Below, one piece after another: positions 3,679 to 9,584 of a stretch of 12,944 bases of DNA. The first letter of the stretch is position 1; each line of letters begins with the position of its first letter. Below the pieces are notes generated by a model, which saw only the letters and a list, made by a program, of their open reading frames with translations, was not told the origin of the DNA and made no database searches. Origin of the DNA: an uncultured bacterium (lineage in GTDB: Bacteria > Eisenbacteria > RBG-16-71-46 > CAIMUX01); assembly GCA_946886185.1 (NCBI GenBank), contig CAMPIC010000026.1:1-12944 (forward strand), in the 5' to 3' direction. The position numbers and the translations under genes are program-made.

Positions 3679-4580
3679 CCGAAAAAACGTTCGAGCGATT
3701 TTTCCGCGCGCTCCGCGTGGTACGAGCTCCGGACCAGCGGGCCGCTCTCGACGTGAGCGAATTCTAGCGCACGGGCCTCGTCCGCGAACGCCGCGAACTC
3801 GTCCGGGGTGACGTAGCGCTGTACGGGCAGATGCTGGCGGGTCGGCTGCAAGTACTGCCCCAAGGTCAGGATGTCGACCCCGTTCCGTCGCAGGTCGCGC
3901 ATCACCTCCCGCACTTCATCGGCGGTCTCCCCCAGACCGAGCATCAAGCTCGACTTGGTGATGAAGCCGCGTTCATGCGCATGGGCGAGCACCCCGAGGC
4001 TGCGGTCGTAGCGCGCTTGAGGGCGCACCGTACGCTGCAGCCGCGGCACCGTTTCGCAGTTGTGAGCGAGAATGTCCGGGCGAGCCGCGAGCACCACATC
4101 GATCGACGACTCCGCCCCTTTGAAGTCCGGGATCAGGACCTCGATCCGTGTCTTCGGAGCGCGCCGGCGCACCGCTTCGATCGTGCGCGCCCAGATCGAG
4201 GCCCCGCCGTCGCTCAGCTCATCCCGGTCGACCGAAGTGATGACCACGTGGACGAGGTTCATGGACGCGATCGCTTCCGCGACTCTCTCCGGCTCCTCCT
4301 GGTCGAGCTCGGTCGGGCGGCCCGTGAGCACGTTGCAGAAGCCGCAGGAGCGGGTACACACGTTGCCCAGGATCATGAAGGTGGCGGTGCCGGCCGACCA
4401 GCACTCGCCGATGTTGGGACAGGCGGCGCTTTCGCAGACCGTATGGAGACGGTTGCCCCGGACGATCCCGCGCGTCCGCGCGAACTCGGTCGACTGGGGC
4501 AGCCGCACCTTCAGCCACTCGGGGCGGCGCCCGAGGGTTCCGCCTGCTGGTCCAGAGCTCGAAGAGCTTGGAGAGCTCAA
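3675..4580 (-). CDS. lipA: LipA, lipoyl synthase (radical SAM)
   Basis: LipA inserts two sulfur atoms into protein-bound octanoyl groups to make lipoate, using S-adenosylmethionine and two iron-sulfur clusters. The protein has 301 residues, normal for the family. The auxiliary-cluster cysteines are Cys49, Cys54 and Cys60 (CESAACPNIGEC). The radical-SAM motif CxxxCxxC is Cys75, Cys79 and Cys82 (CTRSCGFC). The C-terminal R-S-S-Y motif, whose serine ligates the sulfur-donating cluster, is at 284-287. The family's RRPEWLKV segment at 18-25 requires a start upstream of it. The only suitable one is TTG at 4580, with GAGG 6 nt upstream. That start and ribosome site lie inside the last unit of the 26-bp repeat array. 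The gene follows the E2 whose lipoyl lysine is its likely substrate. It ends in TGA overlapping the lexA promoter. Confidence 0.96.
   Translation of the reverse strand: MSSPSSSSSGPAGGTLGRRPEWLKVRLPQSTEFARTRGIVRGNRLHTVCESAACPNIGECWSAGTATFMILGNVCTRSCGFCNVLTGRPTELDQEEPERVAEAIASMNLVHVVITSVDRDELSDGGASIWARTIEAVRRRAPKTRIEVLIPDFKGAESSIDVVLAARPDILAHNCETVPRLQRTVRPQARYDRSLGVLAHAHERGFITKSSLMLGLGETADEVREVMRDLRRNGVDILTLGQYLQPTRQHLPVQRYVTPDEFAAFADEARALEFAHVESGPLVRSSYHAERAEKSLERFFG
3680..3693 (-). promoter_or_regulatory. Second LexA-box-like site inside the 3' end of lipA
   Basis: The minus strand reads CGAACGTTTTTTCG, which fits CGAAC-N4-GTTCG at 9 of 10 defined positions. It starts 24 bp upstream of the perfect box, about two helical turns, and encodes the last residues of LipA (Leu-Glu-Arg-Phe-Phe). 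It could be an auxiliary operator just upstream of the -35 element, or a coincidence of coding sequence. Confidence 0.45.
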
Positions 4581-4834
4581 ATTGCGCCTCGTTTCATCGC
4601 CCTCAGAGTGCGCCTCGTTTCACTGCCCTCAGAGTGCGCCTCGTTTACCGCCCTCAGAGTGCGCCTCGTTTCACTGCCCTCAAAGTGTGCCTCGTTTCAC
4701 CGCCCTCAGAGTGCGCCTCGTTTCACTGCCCTCAAAGTGCGCCTCGTTTCATCGCCCTTAAAGTGCGCCCGTTTCATCGCCCTCGGATTGCGCCTCGCTT
4801 CACTGCCTCAAATTGCGCGCCTCGTTTCACCGCC
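4576..4834 (-). repeat. Tandem array of ten ~26-bp units filling the E2-lipA intergenic gap
   Basis: Ten head-to-tail units occur at 4576-4601, 4602-4627, 4628-4652, 4653-4678, 4679-4704, 4705-4730, 4731-4756, 4757-4781, 4782-4807 and 4808-4834. Most are 26 bp, two are 25 and one is 27. The plus-strand core is CTCAGAGTGCGCCTCGTTTC followed by AYYGCC. Units 2, 4 and 6 are identical. The array begins beside the E2 stop (4837-4839), whose CTC-TGA-G is itself in repeat phase, and ends inside the lipA start region. On the minus strand each unit carries GAGG, and most carry a closed GTG/ATG-Lys-Arg-Gly-Ala/Thr-Leu/Ile-stop frame. The units are contiguous, without spacers, so this is a minisatellite and not CRISPR. 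Confidence 0.97.
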
Positions 4835-4836
4835 TC

Positions 4837-6441
4837 TCAGAGAGAAGCGGGATCGAACGACTCCAGGTTCTGCCGCACGCGTTGAATGAAGAGTCCGCCG
4901 AGCTTGCCATCCACATGGCGATGATCGTAGGACAGGCTCAGGTACATGATGTCGCGGATCGCGATCGCCTCTCCCAGGACCACGGGACGCTTCACGATCG
5001 CCCCTACGCCGAGGATTCCCGACTGCGGCTGGTTGATGATCGGGATCCCGAAGAGATTCCCGAAACTCCCCATGTTGGTGATGGTGAAGGTTCCGCCCGC
5101 CACTTCGTCCGGCTTGAGCTGCTTGGAGCGCGCCCGGTTGGCGAGATCGTCGATCGCGCGCGCGATCCCGAGGAAGTTCTTCTCCTCGGCATGGCGCACC
5201 ACCGGAACGATGAGGCCGCTCTCGAGCGCCACCGCCACTCCCAGATTGATGAACCGCTTGAGCAGGATCTGATTGTTCTCGACCGTCGAGTTCATCATCG
5301 GATAGTCGAGGAGCGCCTTCACCGCCGCCTGCACGATGAACGGCGTGTAGGTGAGCTTGAACCCGTGCTGCGCCTCGAACGCTTTCTTGCTCGCCTCGCG
5401 GTAGCGGACGATCGCCGTCATGTCCACTTCCGTGACCGAGGCGACGTGCGGGGAGGTCGCCTTGGAACGCACCATGTGCTCGGCGATCAGACTGCGCATC
5501 CGGTCCATCCCCACCACGTCGATGCGGCCTTCCGGCGTGGTCAGAGATTCTTGCACCGTGAACTTCGGATACTGCTCGAACTTCGCTCCTCGCGGAGCCG
5601 CCGGAGCGACGAACGTGGGCAGAGTGGGCTGCTCGCGGGGCGCCATGGGCCGGGCTGCCGGAGCGGGAGCAGACGCGACCGCTGCCGGGCGGTGCTCCAC
5701 GTACGACAACAGATCGTCCTTGGTGATCCGTCCTCCCCGTCCCGAGCCTTCCAGCGACTGCAGCTCTTCGAGGGAGACCCCTTCCTCGCGCGCGATCGAG
5801 CGCACGAGCGGAGAGTAGAACCGATTTCCGTCGGTACGCGGCACGTCACCGCCGTTGGCGCCGGGACCGCGTCCGCCCGAAGCGGACCGGGCGGGCACGC
5901 TCTCCTGAGGCCGCGCGCCTTCACGACGAGAATCACCGCGCGCCTCTTCACGCCTGGACGGCGCCCCGGGACGCGAAGGGATCTCCGCCTCGTCCCCTTC
6001 TTCCTGACGGATCGCGGCCTCGGCCGCGCCGTTGCTGCGCCGAGCCGACTGCGGAGCTTCGTCCGCTCCGCGAGACGTGGCAGCGGCAGACTCACCGGAG
6101 GAGCCGTCGCGCTGCTTCGACCCGCTCGCCGGTATCTCCTGCGGTTCCTTCGCCGCTCCCGCGGCGCCCTTGCTCGGCTGCTCGGAACCGGTCTCGGCCC
6201 CTTGCTCGGTCTCCAGGATCGCGATCACCTGGCCGATCGGAACGACGTCCCCTTCGTTCGCCTTCAGCTCCACGATCGTGCCGGCAACGGGCGAGGGGAT
6301 CTCCGAGTCGACCTTGTCGGTCGAGATCTCGAGCACGTTCTCGTCCTTCTCGACCCGGTCTCCCACCTTCTTCAACCACTTGAGAACGGTGCCTTCCGCG
6401 ATACTTTCCCCCATCTGGGGCATGACCATGTCGACCTTCAT
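4837..6441 (-). CDS. 2-oxoacid dehydrogenase E2, dihydrolipoamide acyltransferase
   Basis: E2 core of a 2-oxoacid dehydrogenase complex: it takes the acyl group from E1 on its lipoyl arm and transfers it to CoA. From the ATG at 6441 it has 534 residues. Residues 1-78 are the lipoyl domain, with lipoylation Lys43 in TDKVDSE. Residues 80-205 are a flexible Ala/Glu/Arg/Ser-rich linker. About 205-250 is the peripheral E1/E3-binding domain (SPLVRSIAREEGVSLEEL, GRGGRITKDDLL). A Pro/Ala linker follows, then the catalytic domain from about 290, with DHRHVDG (His507, Asp511). This start is preferred over an in-frame ATG at 6573 because AAGGTGAGG precedes it and the lipoyl domain begins there. The single lipoyl domain and the E1 type fit a branched-chain 2-oxoacid complex, but pyruvate cannot be excluded. 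The stop is TGA, abutting the repeat array. Confidence 0.95.
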   Translation of the reverse strand: MKVDMVMPQMGESIAEGTVLKWLKKVGDRVEKDENVLEISTDKVDSEIPSPVAGTIVELKANEGDVVPIGQVIAILETEQGAETGSEQPSKGAAGAAKEPQEIPASGSKQRDGSSGESAAATSRGADEAPQSARRSNGAAEAAIRQEEGDEAEIPSRPGAPSRREEARGDSRREGARPQESVPARSASGGRGPGANGGDVPRTDGNRFYSPLVRSIAREEGVSLEELQSLEGSGRGGRITKDDLLSYVEHRPAAVASAPAPAARPMAPREQPTLPTFVAPAAPRGAKFEQYPKFTVQESLTTPEGRIDVVGMDRMRSLIAEHMVRSKATSPHVASVTEVDMTAIVRYREASKKAFEAQHGFKLTYTPFIVQAAVKALLDYPMMNSTVENNQILLKRFINLGVAVALESGLIVPVVRHAEEKNFLGIARAIDDLANRARSKQLKPDEVAGGTFTITNMGSFGNLFGIPIINQPQSGILGVGAIVKRPVVLGEAIAIRDIMYLSLSYDHRHVDGKLGGLFIQRVRQNLESFDPASL

Positions 6442-6645: not shown

Positions 6646-8433
6646 CTAGTACTGCGCGAGCTCCAGGAGCGCGCGCTGCACGTGCCGCTCCTGAGGCAGG
6701 ATCTCCGCTTCCAAGATCCAGTTGTACGGAATCGGGCTCTCCGCACCTCCCAGGCGCCGCACGGGAGCGTCCAGATGCTCGAACGCTTCGCTCGCGATCC
6801 GCGCCGCTACTTCCGCGCCAAATCCGCTCGAGAGCACGTCTTCGTGCGCGACCAGGACCTTTCCCGTCTTGCGCACGCTTTCCACGATCGTTTCCATGTC
6901 GAGCGGAACCATGGTGCGCAGGTCGATCACTTCGACCGACACGCCATGCTCGCGCTTCATCCATTCCGCGCCGTCCAAACTCTTCTTCACGAGCGCGCCC
7001 CAGGTCACGACCGTGAGATCGGTGCCGGCGCGCACCACGCGTCCCACTCCCCACGGGAGCAGATAATCCGCATCCGGTTCCGGCGTCGCCGCATAGGACT
7101 GGCGGTACAGTCCCTTGTGCTCCAGGAAGAGGTACGGATCCTCTCCGCGGATGGCCGACTTGAGCAGGCCCTTGGCGTCCGCGGCGTTCGACGGATACGC
7201 GACGTAGAGCCCGGGAAAGTGCGCGAACGTCGCTTCGATGTTCTGGCTGTGATAGAGCGCGCCGTGGATGTAGCCGCCCACGGGGATGCGCACCACCACC
7301 GGGCAGGTCCAGTCTCCCGCCGATCGATACCGCATCAGCGCGAGCTCGTTGCGGATCTGCATCATGGCGGTCCAGACGTAGTCGCCGAACTGGATCTCCA
7401 CGACCGGCTTGATTCCAGTCACGGCCATGCCGATGGCGGTGCCGATGATCGACGACTCCGCCAGCGGCGAGTGGAAGCAGCGCGTGTCTCCGTACTTGTG
7501 GGTGAGACCGCGCGTCGCCGTGAACACTCCTCCCTTGTCGCCTTGCACATCCTGCCCGTAGACCACGACGGCATCGTCGCGCGCCATCTCCTCTTCCATG
7601 GCGTGATTGATCGCGTCCACCAGCACGATCGAATCGGAGATCTTGCCCGCCGGCTCGCGCCGGGCCCCCGCGGGCGCGCGATAGACGCGATGCGCATAGA
7701 CATGATCGAGCGCCGACTCGGGATCAGGGAACGGCCTCGACTCCGCATGCTCGGCGCGCTCATCGATCTCGCGCCGCACTTCCGCGCGCACCTCTTCGAG
7801 CTCCTCGCTCGTCACGAGTCCCATTTCCACCAGCTGCCGCTCCAGATGCGGAACCGGATCGCGCTCCTGATCCGCCGCCAGCTCTTCCGCAGAGCGATAC
7901 TTCGCCTGGTTGTCGGACGAGGAGTGCGGAAGAAGCCGCACCACGTCGGCCGCAATCAAGGTGGGTCCTTCTCCGCGGCGGGCGCGCTCCACTGCCTGCC
8001 GCGCGACCTCGAAGGAGGCGAAGAGATCGCAGCCGTCCACTTCGACGCGCGCCAGCCCTTCATAACCCGCGGTCATCTTGTAGACCGAGCATCCCGCGGT
8101 CTGTTGGGAGATCGGCACCGAGATCGCGTAGTTGTTGTCTTCGACGAGGAAGATGACCGGCGCGTGCGCGCGCGCCGCCCAGTTGAGCGCCTCGTGGAAG
8201 TCTCCCTGGCTGGTGGTTCCTTCGCCGCACGACACCATCACGACTTCGTCGCTGCCCGCGCGCTGAATCGCGAGCGCGGTCCCCACGGCCTGGAGGAACT
8301 GCGTCCCGGTCGGGCTCGATTGCGAGACGATGCGCAGCTTGCGATGGCCGTAGTGCGCCGGCATCTGACGCCCGCCGGAGTTCGGATCGTCCCGCTTCGA
8401 AAGGAAGCAGAGCAGCACTTCCTCGGTCGTCAT
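6646..8433 (-). CDS. Fused 2-oxoacid dehydrogenase E1 alpha-beta, main part after an in-frame TGA
   Basis: E1 decarboxylates a 2-oxoacid with thiamine diphosphate and acylates the E2 lipoyl arm. From the ATG at 8433 (595 residues), residues 1 to about 260 are most of the alpha subunit. This includes GGRQMPAHYGH, the ThDP/Mg motif (Gly70-Glu71-Gly72 through Asn100-Asn101, EDNNYAIS) and the loop PHSSSDNQAKYRS. Residues from about 264 are a complete beta subunit (SIVLVDAINHAM, HSPLAESSIIGTA with Glu326, GALYHSQNIEATF, WGALVKKSL). Alpha and beta are therefore one polypeptide, as in fused branched-chain-type E1 enzymes. The alpha N-terminus is encoded directly upstream in the same frame, separated only by TGA plus four codons. 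No frameshift is seen over these 595 codons, so the rest of the gene appears under selection. ATG 8433 has no clear ribosome site. The stop is TAG. Confidence 0.9.
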   Translation of the reverse strand: MTTEEVLLCFLSKRDDPNSGGRQMPAHYGHRKLRIVSQSSPTGTQFLQAVGTALAIQRAGSDEVVMVSCGEGTTSQGDFHEALNWAARAHAPVIFLVEDNNYAISVPISQQTAGCSVYKMTAGYEGLARVEVDGCDLFASFEVARQAVERARRGEGPTLIAADVVRLLPHSSSDNQAKYRSAEELAADQERDPVPHLERQLVEMGLVTSEELEEVRAEVRREIDERAEHAESRPFPDPESALDHVYAHRVYRAPAGARREPAGKISDSIVLVDAINHAMEEEMARDDAVVVYGQDVQGDKGGVFTATRGLTHKYGDTRCFHSPLAESSIIGTAIGMAVTGIKPVVEIQFGDYVWTAMMQIRNELALMRYRSAGDWTCPVVVRIPVGGYIHGALYHSQNIEATFAHFPGLYVAYPSNAADAKGLLKSAIRGEDPYLFLEHKGLYRQSYAATPEPDADYLLPWGVGRVVRAGTDLTVVTWGALVKKSLDGAEWMKREHGVSVEVIDLRTMVPLDMETIVESVRKTGKVLVAHEDVLSSGFGAEVAARIASEAFEHLDAPVRRLGGAESPIPYNWILEAEILPQERHVQRALLELAQY

Positions 8434-8445
8434 CCCGAACTCGAG

Positions 8446-8448
8446 TCA
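8446..8448 (-). other. In-frame TGA codon interrupting the fused E1 gene
   Basis: Codon 93 of the E1 frame is TGA, between Gly-Leu-Ala-Phe and Leu-Glu-Phe-Gly-Met. Frame and similarity continue on both sides with no base gained or lost. Nearby genes (the first plus-strand gene, lexA, lipA, E2, lpd) all end in TGA, which argues against a reassigned code. A possible UUCGG/CCGAG stem with an 8-nt loop begins about 8 nt after the TGA, but it lacks the GU-bearing apical loop typical of bacterial SECIS elements. Confidence 0.9.
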
Positions 8449-8724
8449 GAAGGCGAGACCGCGGTAGTAGGGATAGGCCCAGTCATGTCCGGGACGCATG
8501 TTGGCCGCGAGCGCGATCTGGACCGCTTCGTGACCGGCCGCGCCGATGTGGAAGAAGCTTTTCCCCTGCTTCAAGAGGATGAGCATCTTCTCGTCGAGGC
8601 GGCGCGTGCGCAGCATGTTGCGATGCATCGCGCGCAGCGCCTCCACCGGGATCTCGACTCCCGGCCGGGCCGACTTTCCTCGCTTGCTCTGCGTGCGCGC
8701 TCCCGACTTGGTGTTTACTGGCAT
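8446..8724 (-). CDS. N-terminal segment of the fused E1, ending at the in-frame TGA
   Basis: These 92 residues are the start of E1 alpha (EALRAMHRNMLRTRRLDEKM, FFHIGAAGHEAVQIALAA, DWAYPYYRGLAF). They stop at a TGA that is in frame with the following 595-codon E1 reading frame. Read through, the product would be 692 residues, a normal size for a fused alpha-beta E1. The ATG at 8724 has GGGAG about 5 nt upstream. It overlaps the lipB TAA by 10 bases, so translation is probably coupled to lipB. Alone this segment has no ThDP site. It could act only if the TGA is decoded, if the two pieces associate, or if the TGA is a sequencing or recent mutational artefact. Confidence 0.85.
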   Translation of the reverse strand: MPVNTKSGARTQSKRGKSARPGVEIPVEALRAMHRNMLRTRRLDEKMLILLKQGKSFFHIGAAGHEAVQIALAANMRPGHDWAYPYYRGLAF

Positions 8725-9584
8725 GAAGCTCCCATCCTCCCTTCGAGCGAGTCGTTCCTGCTCGTAGGGTTCTCTTTCTTGGACGATTCGGCGCTCTCAC
8801 GCGCTTCCACGCGCGACAGCTCCGCCTCCAGTTGATCGCTCGACAGGCGGATCGGAGTGCGACCGAATCCGCGGGAAGCATGGTTCATGACGAGACGCTC
8901 GACTTGGGCTCTCTCCGGAGCGGTGCCCGAAAGAGCGGCGATCGAGGTCACGGGACGGCCGGTCAGGCCGCAAGGGACGATCCACGAGAACGGTTTCAGA
9001 TCGAGATCGAGATTGAGCGCGAACCCGTGCGTGCTCACCCAGTGGCTGAGATGGAGCCCGATGGCCGCCACCTTGGCGTCCGACGCCCATACTCCGGTAG
9101 CGCCCGCCGATCTCCCCGCCGCGATGCCGAAATCGCGCAAGGTCGCGATCAGCACCTCCTCGATTTCTCTCAAATAGCGATGCACGTCCATGTGCCAGCT
9201 CCGCAGATCGAAGATCCAGTAGCCGATCAATTGGCCGGGACCGTGATAGGTGACATCTCCGCCCCGATCGACCTCGACCAGCTCCACTCCTCGCCGCGCC
9301 AACTCCGCTTCCGGAAGGAGCACGTTCTCCAGGTGCGCGTTCCGCCCCAGAGTGACGACCGGATCGTGCTCGAGGAACAAGAGCGTGTCGGGGATCCCTC
9401 CCCGCCAGCGCGCGCGCCAAAGCCGCCGCTGGAGATCCCAGGCGCGCCGATACGGCTGGCGGCTCTCCCAGGAGACCACCCAAAGCGGAGGTGCCCCGCT
9501 GTCAGAGCGAGGTGCCCCGCTGTCAGAGCGAGGCGCCCCGCTGTCAGAGCGAGGTGCACTGGTCGTAGGCCAGTCCCGTTGCAT
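8715..9584 (-). CDS. lipB: LipB, octanoyl-[ACP]:protein octanoyltransferase
   Basis: LipB moves octanoate from acyl carrier protein to the lipoyl-domain lysine, the first step of lipoate assembly before LipA. From the ATG at 9584 it has 289 residues. The conserved core begins at LWVVSW (about residue 34) and contains RGGDVTYHGPGQ (His114). The catalytic pair is Lys171 (AKVAAIG) and Cys205 (PCGLTG). The core is followed by a charged Ser/Glu-rich tail of about 35 residues not expected in the family. The start is uncertain. ATG 9584 overlaps lpd by 41 bases and has an upstream GAGG; ATG 9617 would overlap by 74; GTG 9479 sits directly at the core. With either ATG the N-terminus contains three copies of APRSDSG, encoded by the 21-bp repeats. 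The stop TAA overlaps the E1 ATG. Confidence 0.93.
   Translation of the reverse strand: MQRDWPTTSAPRSDSGAPRSDSGAPRSDSGAPPLWVVSWESRQPYRRAWDLQRRLWRARWRGGIPDTLLFLEHDPVVTLGRNAHLENVLLPEAELARRGVELVEVDRGGDVTYHGPGQLIGYWIFDLRSWHMDVHRYLREIEEVLIATLRDFGIAAGRSAGATGVWASDAKVAAIGLHLSHWVSTHGFALNLDLDLKPFSWIVPCGLTGRPVTSIAALSGTAPERAQVERLVMNHASRGFGRTPIRLSSDQLEAELSRVEARESAESSKKENPTSRNDSLEGRMGASCQ
9490..9552 (-). repeat. Three 21-bp tandem repeats spanning the lpd stop and lipB start
   Basis: Units lie at 9490-9510, 9511-9531 and 9532-9552, with a 5-base start of a fourth to 9557. They are identical except for one T/C change in the third. On the minus strand each unit contains CACCTCGCTCTGACAGC or its variant. The copy at 9532-9552 provides the last codons and TGA of lpd, and the next two repeat them after the gene. 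In the lipB frame the units read APRSDSG three times. Because 21 is a multiple of three, changes in copy number would not shift the lipB frame. Confidence 0.95.

Follow-up and report, generated by a model that had tools for sequence, protein, structure and literature searches.

Fused E1 alpha-beta proteins of 2-oxo acid dehydrogenase complexes, which some sources call the 2-oxoisovalerate dehydrogenase E1 component, carry the E1_dh, Transket_pyr and Transketolase_C domains in one frame. A gene of this kind that is broken by a TGA can be set beside bacterial selenoproteins that have Cys homologues, and beside the nonsense alleles and consensus errors of metagenome contigs. For selenoproteins, the main text of PMC13188914 takes as criteria a conserved Cys opposite the TGA, a potential bSECIS element, and homologues from other organisms that also carry the TGA, and neither this main text nor that of the other prokaryotic selenoprotein review, PMC9312934, mentions 2-oxo or pyruvate dehydrogenase. 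Our literature searches found no report of Eisenbacteria with selenocysteine and nothing directly applicable on errors or premature stops in metagenome assemblies.

The window, by which we mean the whole stretch of 12,944 nucleotides that was analysed, carries on its minus strand a TGA-interrupted gene (6646..8724) that, judged by its domains and homologues, is a fused E1 alpha-beta 2-oxo acid (pyruvate or branched-chain) dehydrogenase. Read directly, the frame runs from ATG 8724 to TAG 6646 and counts 693 codons with the final stop; its sole internal stop is the TGA of codon 93 (8446..8448, minus strand, read 8448-8446), just as the sequence-only reading of this DNA had described it. The 595 codons which that reading placed after the TGA are the count from ATG 8433 (Met98), and the sense codons that follow the TGA number 599. 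Pfam matches the 92-codon piece before the TGA (8449..8724, minus strand) to positions 2-56 of PF00676 (E1_dh), and the 595-codon piece that begins at the Met five codons past it (6646..8433, minus strand) to positions 67-300 of the same profile, followed by Transket_pyr (PF02779) and Transketolase_C (PF02780), so that all three domains lie in one frame when the TGA is read through. Because E1_dh is split across the TGA, such a frame was not made by chance.

The same strand also carries genes for LexA, LipA, E2, LipB, E3 and a DHH-family protein (Pfam), and each of the seven other recognised genes of the window is one open frame. Five of the window's genes, those for the FlgD-Ig protein, LexA, LipA, E2 and E3, terminate with TGA, in agreement with what had been noted earlier. 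Genome-wide reassignment of TGA was considered and is ruled out by these five genes; the E1 frame, for its part, holds no second in-frame TGA. Between the E2 and LipA genes, at 4576-4842, a 26-base unit is repeated head to tail about ten times, and a 17-base core of this unit had no exact match in 132 loci or in genomes G001, G002 and G003. Just over three copies of a 21-base unit stand at 9488-9557, near the start of the LipB frame and overlapping the end of the E3 gene; the listed LipB start codon is inside E3, and the true start may lie further in. Overlapping 31- and 47-base tandem repeats fill 2604-2742, where the FlgD-Ig protein and LexA genes converge.

Whether codon 93 is a stop in other organisms was judged on proteins and on genome contigs. 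The protein search scored the 8000 candidates sharing most words with the query, and the best 120, at 59-100% identity over 83-100% of its length, were listed. Residue 93 among these 120 is Val in 62, Cys in 36, Ala in 8, Thr in 5, Met in 3, Ile in 3 and Asn in 2, with one gap in P0009, a protein that starts later, which bears out the earlier remark that homologues often have Cys or a small hydrophobic residue here. The nearest homologues that cover the position have Cys, and the Thermus E1 alpha chain (1um9_A) aligns an Ala with it. A scan of genome contigs, from which the best 80 of 235 confirmed relatives were used, found that codon 93 is sense in all 80, including the locus of the closest genome (Cys 55, Val 15, Thr 3, Ala 3, Met 2, Asn 1, Tyr 1). 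Among the closest loci were L001 (83%), L002 (75%), and L003 and L004 (68% each); L001, L003 and L004 belong to MAGs of Candidatus Eisenbacteria. When all fetched loci were searched for the motif in six frames and identical stretches were counted once, 102 sites were obtained, 10 of which have Met at position 93 and may be paralogues. TGA stands at codon 93 in 0 of the 80 loci and 0 of the 102 motif sites; the alignment of relatives that had been proposed as a check thus returned no conserved TGA.

A wider search of genomes extended this comparison. Some E1 match came from 97 of 99 genomes, and none of the 31 best E1 matches from the 99 genomes has an internal stop. Among the matches listed, internal stops occur solely in weaker ones of at most 49% identity, which are presumably paralogues or unfused alpha and beta genes whose match ran on beyond the gene end. 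The TGA therefore occurs in this contig alone among all the sequences compared, as does a second peculiarity of the same gene, the His at codon 418.

This second peculiarity emerges from the best database protein, P0002 (JGI, 692 aa, encoded on a contig of 9183 bases, in a cluster of 9 sequences), which differs from the E1 of the window at 2 of 692 residues. At residue 93 P0002 has Cys, known from the protein letter, where the window has TGA, and its frame is uninterrupted where that of the window is broken. Residue 418, a His in the window (7471..7473, minus strand, read 7473-7471), is Asn in P0002. Asn418 is found in 120 of the 120 listed homologues, and codon 418 specifies Asn in 80 of the 80 genome loci, so the earlier statement that every expected E1 motif is kept fails at this place. 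Measured against these homologues, both differences are of a damaging kind, one a stop and the other a change at Asn418, and two damaging differences fit random errors or a freshly dead gene, unlike ordinary strain variation under selection. The His418 codon is possibly a second consensus error.

Outside these two codons the gene has the pattern of a selected one. Relative to the nearest genome (L001), the stretch before the TGA shows 29 synonymous and 14 non-synonymous codon differences and the stretch after it 219 and 104, a synonymous excess on both sides that points to purifying selection. We consider it probable, though short of assured, that the TGA of codon 93 is a wrong base in the contig consensus, an error rather than a real mutation. 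This explanation is favoured because P0002 differs at codons 93 and 418 alone and both changes appear damaging, because codon 93 is sense in every genome locus, that of the closest genome included, and because purifying selection is seen on both sides of the TGA in a window whose seven other genes are in open frames. If so, codon 93 of the organism would be a sense codon, with Cys in the near-identical copy as a guide, and a single 692-residue chain would be made. The product would be the ordinary fused E1 of a 2-oxo acid dehydrogenase complex in a Candidatus Eisenbacteria-like bacterium, encoded among the genes for E2, E3, LipA and LipB.

The distribution of odd residues over the window counts the other way. 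At columns at least 98% alike among the listed proteins (118 of 120 proteins used for E1, 119 of 120 for E3 and 120 of 120 for LipA, those below a set length being excluded), the window departs at 1 of 183 columns in E1, the one at position 418, and at 0 of 102 in E3 and 0 of 93 in LipA. Both anomalies thus fall in E1 and none at near-invariant columns of E3 or LipA, which is also expected of a decaying gene and lends some weight to real decay. Among the fetched loci, again at columns at least 98% alike, the departures number 1 of 113 in E1 (again residue 418), 0 of 28 in LipB, 0 of 76 in E3, 1 of 66 in LipA (Glu at residue 273 of the 301-aa frame; 36 homologues) and 1 of 50 in E2 (Val63; 15 homologues). 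Neither of the last two was kept as an anomaly: LipA residue 273 is not among the differences from its two nearest homologues, and the change at E2 Val63 is conservative. LexA and the DHH-family protein had 1 and 2 homologues among the loci, too few to judge odd residues. The E3 of the window differs from a near-identical copy, P0122, at one variable residue, besides three extra N-terminal residues in the query; the closest homologue of LipA lies further off, at 23 differences in 297 residues.

That pattern gives weight to a recent and real null allele, in which a strain or subpopulation would carry the nonsense change, perhaps with a second damage at 418, and would obtain no working E1 from the gene. 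The two damaging differences in one gene are what such an allele would leave, and since the rest of the E1 frame is intact any loss would have to be recent. The adjoining E2, E3, LipA and LipB genes nevertheless remain in open frames with their domains. The closest genome, G001, a fragmented MAG, has one close E1 copy (83%) and one 34% paralogue among the matches listed, and hence no spare close copy there. With the accessory genes open and a single close E1 copy in the relative, true loss becomes less likely, and we regard a null allele as the second-ranked reading after consensus error, conceivable but rather doubtful. Consensus error and recent pseudogene had both been put forward from the letters alone, and both accommodate a private TGA beside a near-identical intact copy with Cys.

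A further possibility is that the gene works in two parts, an N-terminal chain of 92 residues acting together with a chain of 595 residues whose translation restarts at ATG 8433. The ATG lies five codons past the TGA, near enough for reinitiation. Met98, however, is an ordinary residue of the family, present at 82 of the 102 motif sites, so ATG 8433 is no sign of an evolved start. The cut would also fall within the E1_dh domain, just past a Tyr-Arg pair at residues 87-88 that we presume to contact the diphosphate of ThDP; a chain restarted at ATG 8433 would lose its first 97 residues, this pair included. The absence of internal stops from the 31 best matches in the 99 genomes argues against a split as well. 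The restart suggested by the sequence-only reading therefore finds little encouragement in a Met that is an ordinary protein residue and in the loss of the first 97 residues, and we hold split translation to be very improbable.

Suppression, or leaky readthrough by a near-cognate or suppressor tRNA, would instead keep E1 at a low level. A C following TGA is regarded as a leaky context, and the E1 TGA is followed by C; position 93, moreover, tolerates several residues. Set against this are the five window genes that use TGA as their terminator and the failure of any compared relative to have TGA at position 93. Suppression, too, is very improbable in our estimate, if marginally less so than a split.

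Under the selenocysteine reading the TGA would be decoded as Sec by SelB and tRNA-Sec in place of the relatives' Cys, and Cys is indeed the residue of the closest homologues that cover position 93. Genes for the machinery occur in more distant genomes, with selA, selB and selD over the cut-off in G002, G003 and G005, tRNA-Sec over the cut-off in G002, G003 and G004 in a search that excluded G005, and selB also in G004. In G001, by comparison, there was no selA match, and selB, selD and tRNA-Sec gave nothing over the cut-off, in a fragmented MAG that may miss them. Matches to tRNA-Sec, selB and selD below the cut-off arise in 14 of 14 control genomes and were given no weight. Against the Sec reading stand the relatives themselves: no locus or motif site has the TGA, so that the TGA-containing homologues in other organisms named in the main text of PMC13188914 were not found for E1, and the near-identical P0002 has Cys. 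Nor does the place look like a conserved redox-active Sec/Cys site, with Cys in 36 and Val in 62 of the 120 listed proteins; the occurrence of Val, Ala, Thr, Met, Ile and Asn at position 93 makes a redox role unlikely.

Loose criteria for a bacterial SECIS element are a G early in the loop and a distance of 16-37 bases from the TGA. A hairpin in the coding stretch 3' of the E1 TGA (8401..8424, minus strand) agrees with them, having 8 pairs, 3 of them G-C, a loop of 8 that begins with G, and a fitting distance, and the predicted fold of an 81-base stretch includes a stem with the same 8-base loop. The earlier remark that no typical SECIS loop is present in this stem was too strong, since a stem with a loop-initial G can be drawn at a fitting distance, and such stems are common by chance. 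Under our scoring, a simple in-house rule rather than a published SECIS finder, some hairpin follows 441 of 660 E1 codon positions and 1717 of 2911 in the other window genes, and one equal to or better than that of codon 93 follows 37 of 660 and 128 of 2911, respectively. Equally good hairpins occur at 6 of the 102 orthologous sites, which have no TGA, and the 81-base stretch folds no better than its shuffles (z 0.28; of 200 shuffles, 119 folded at least as well). The SECIS candidate is thus not distinguished from chance, and taken alone the hairpin excludes nothing.

The selD genes of G002 and G003 (loci L131 and L132) served as a positive control from the same group. Both have an in-frame TGA at the same codon, and the selD match of G005 also has one TGA. 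The stem after the TGA, counted by eye, has 8 pairs in G002 and G003, 5 and 6 of them G-C, and a three-base loop. The two genomes differ by a change on both sides of one pair and on a single side of another, and the stem persists. From this comparison the selD TGA is likely a genuine Sec codon in this group. The E1 stem is of the same length; with its 3 G-C pairs and loop of 8 it is poorer in G-C and weaker than that of selD, although not wholly unlike it. The difference between the cases lies in the TGA itself: that of selD is shared between genomes, and that of E1 is not.

The selenocysteine option raised from the letters alone consequently fits poorly, given that no relative has TGA, that P0002 has Cys, that Val stands in 62 of the 120 listed proteins and that G001 yielded no Sec genes over the cut-off. 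It is unlikely, and we place it lowest of all the readings. A subpopulation with a real TGA at 93 that makes E1 by UGA decoding, whether by Sec or by suppression, is highly improbable, and all the decoding readings taken together (Sec, suppression and split) still amount to an improbable account of the gene.

Other searches turned up no competing feature at the codon. The four Rfam matches in the window all fell short of their gathering scores and lay clear of 8446-8448, and no tRNA was found within the window. Plasmid records gave no megablast match, and the DNA around codon 93, with one base left open, had no exact counterpart in viral contigs.

Translation of the TGA would add a thiamine-dependent E1 to the recoded proteins, with Sec or readthrough arising within a species, and true UGA decoding would mean that, at the level of strains, a central metabolic enzyme has traded a Cys for a recoded UGA. 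The evidence points away from a translated TGA, most likely to a sequencing or assembly error or a fresh mutation and not to new decoding. It also carries a caution: where a TGA stands opposite Cys in a single contig, a near-identical intact copy should be sought before Sec is proposed.

Compared with the known systems, the locus resembles bacterial selenoproteins with Cys homologues in that its TGA is aligned with Cys in the closest relatives and a loose hairpin follows 3' of it. It differs from them in a TGA that no compared relative has, in a place that is not conserved as Cys, and in a hairpin equalled at about 5% of other codon positions. It resembles the fused E1 alpha-beta proteins in its three domains in one frame and differs in the in-frame TGA at 93 and in His rather than Asn at 418. 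With nonsense alleles and consensus errors in metagenome contigs it shares a single private stop in a frame under selection, alongside a near-identical protein that is intact on another contig.
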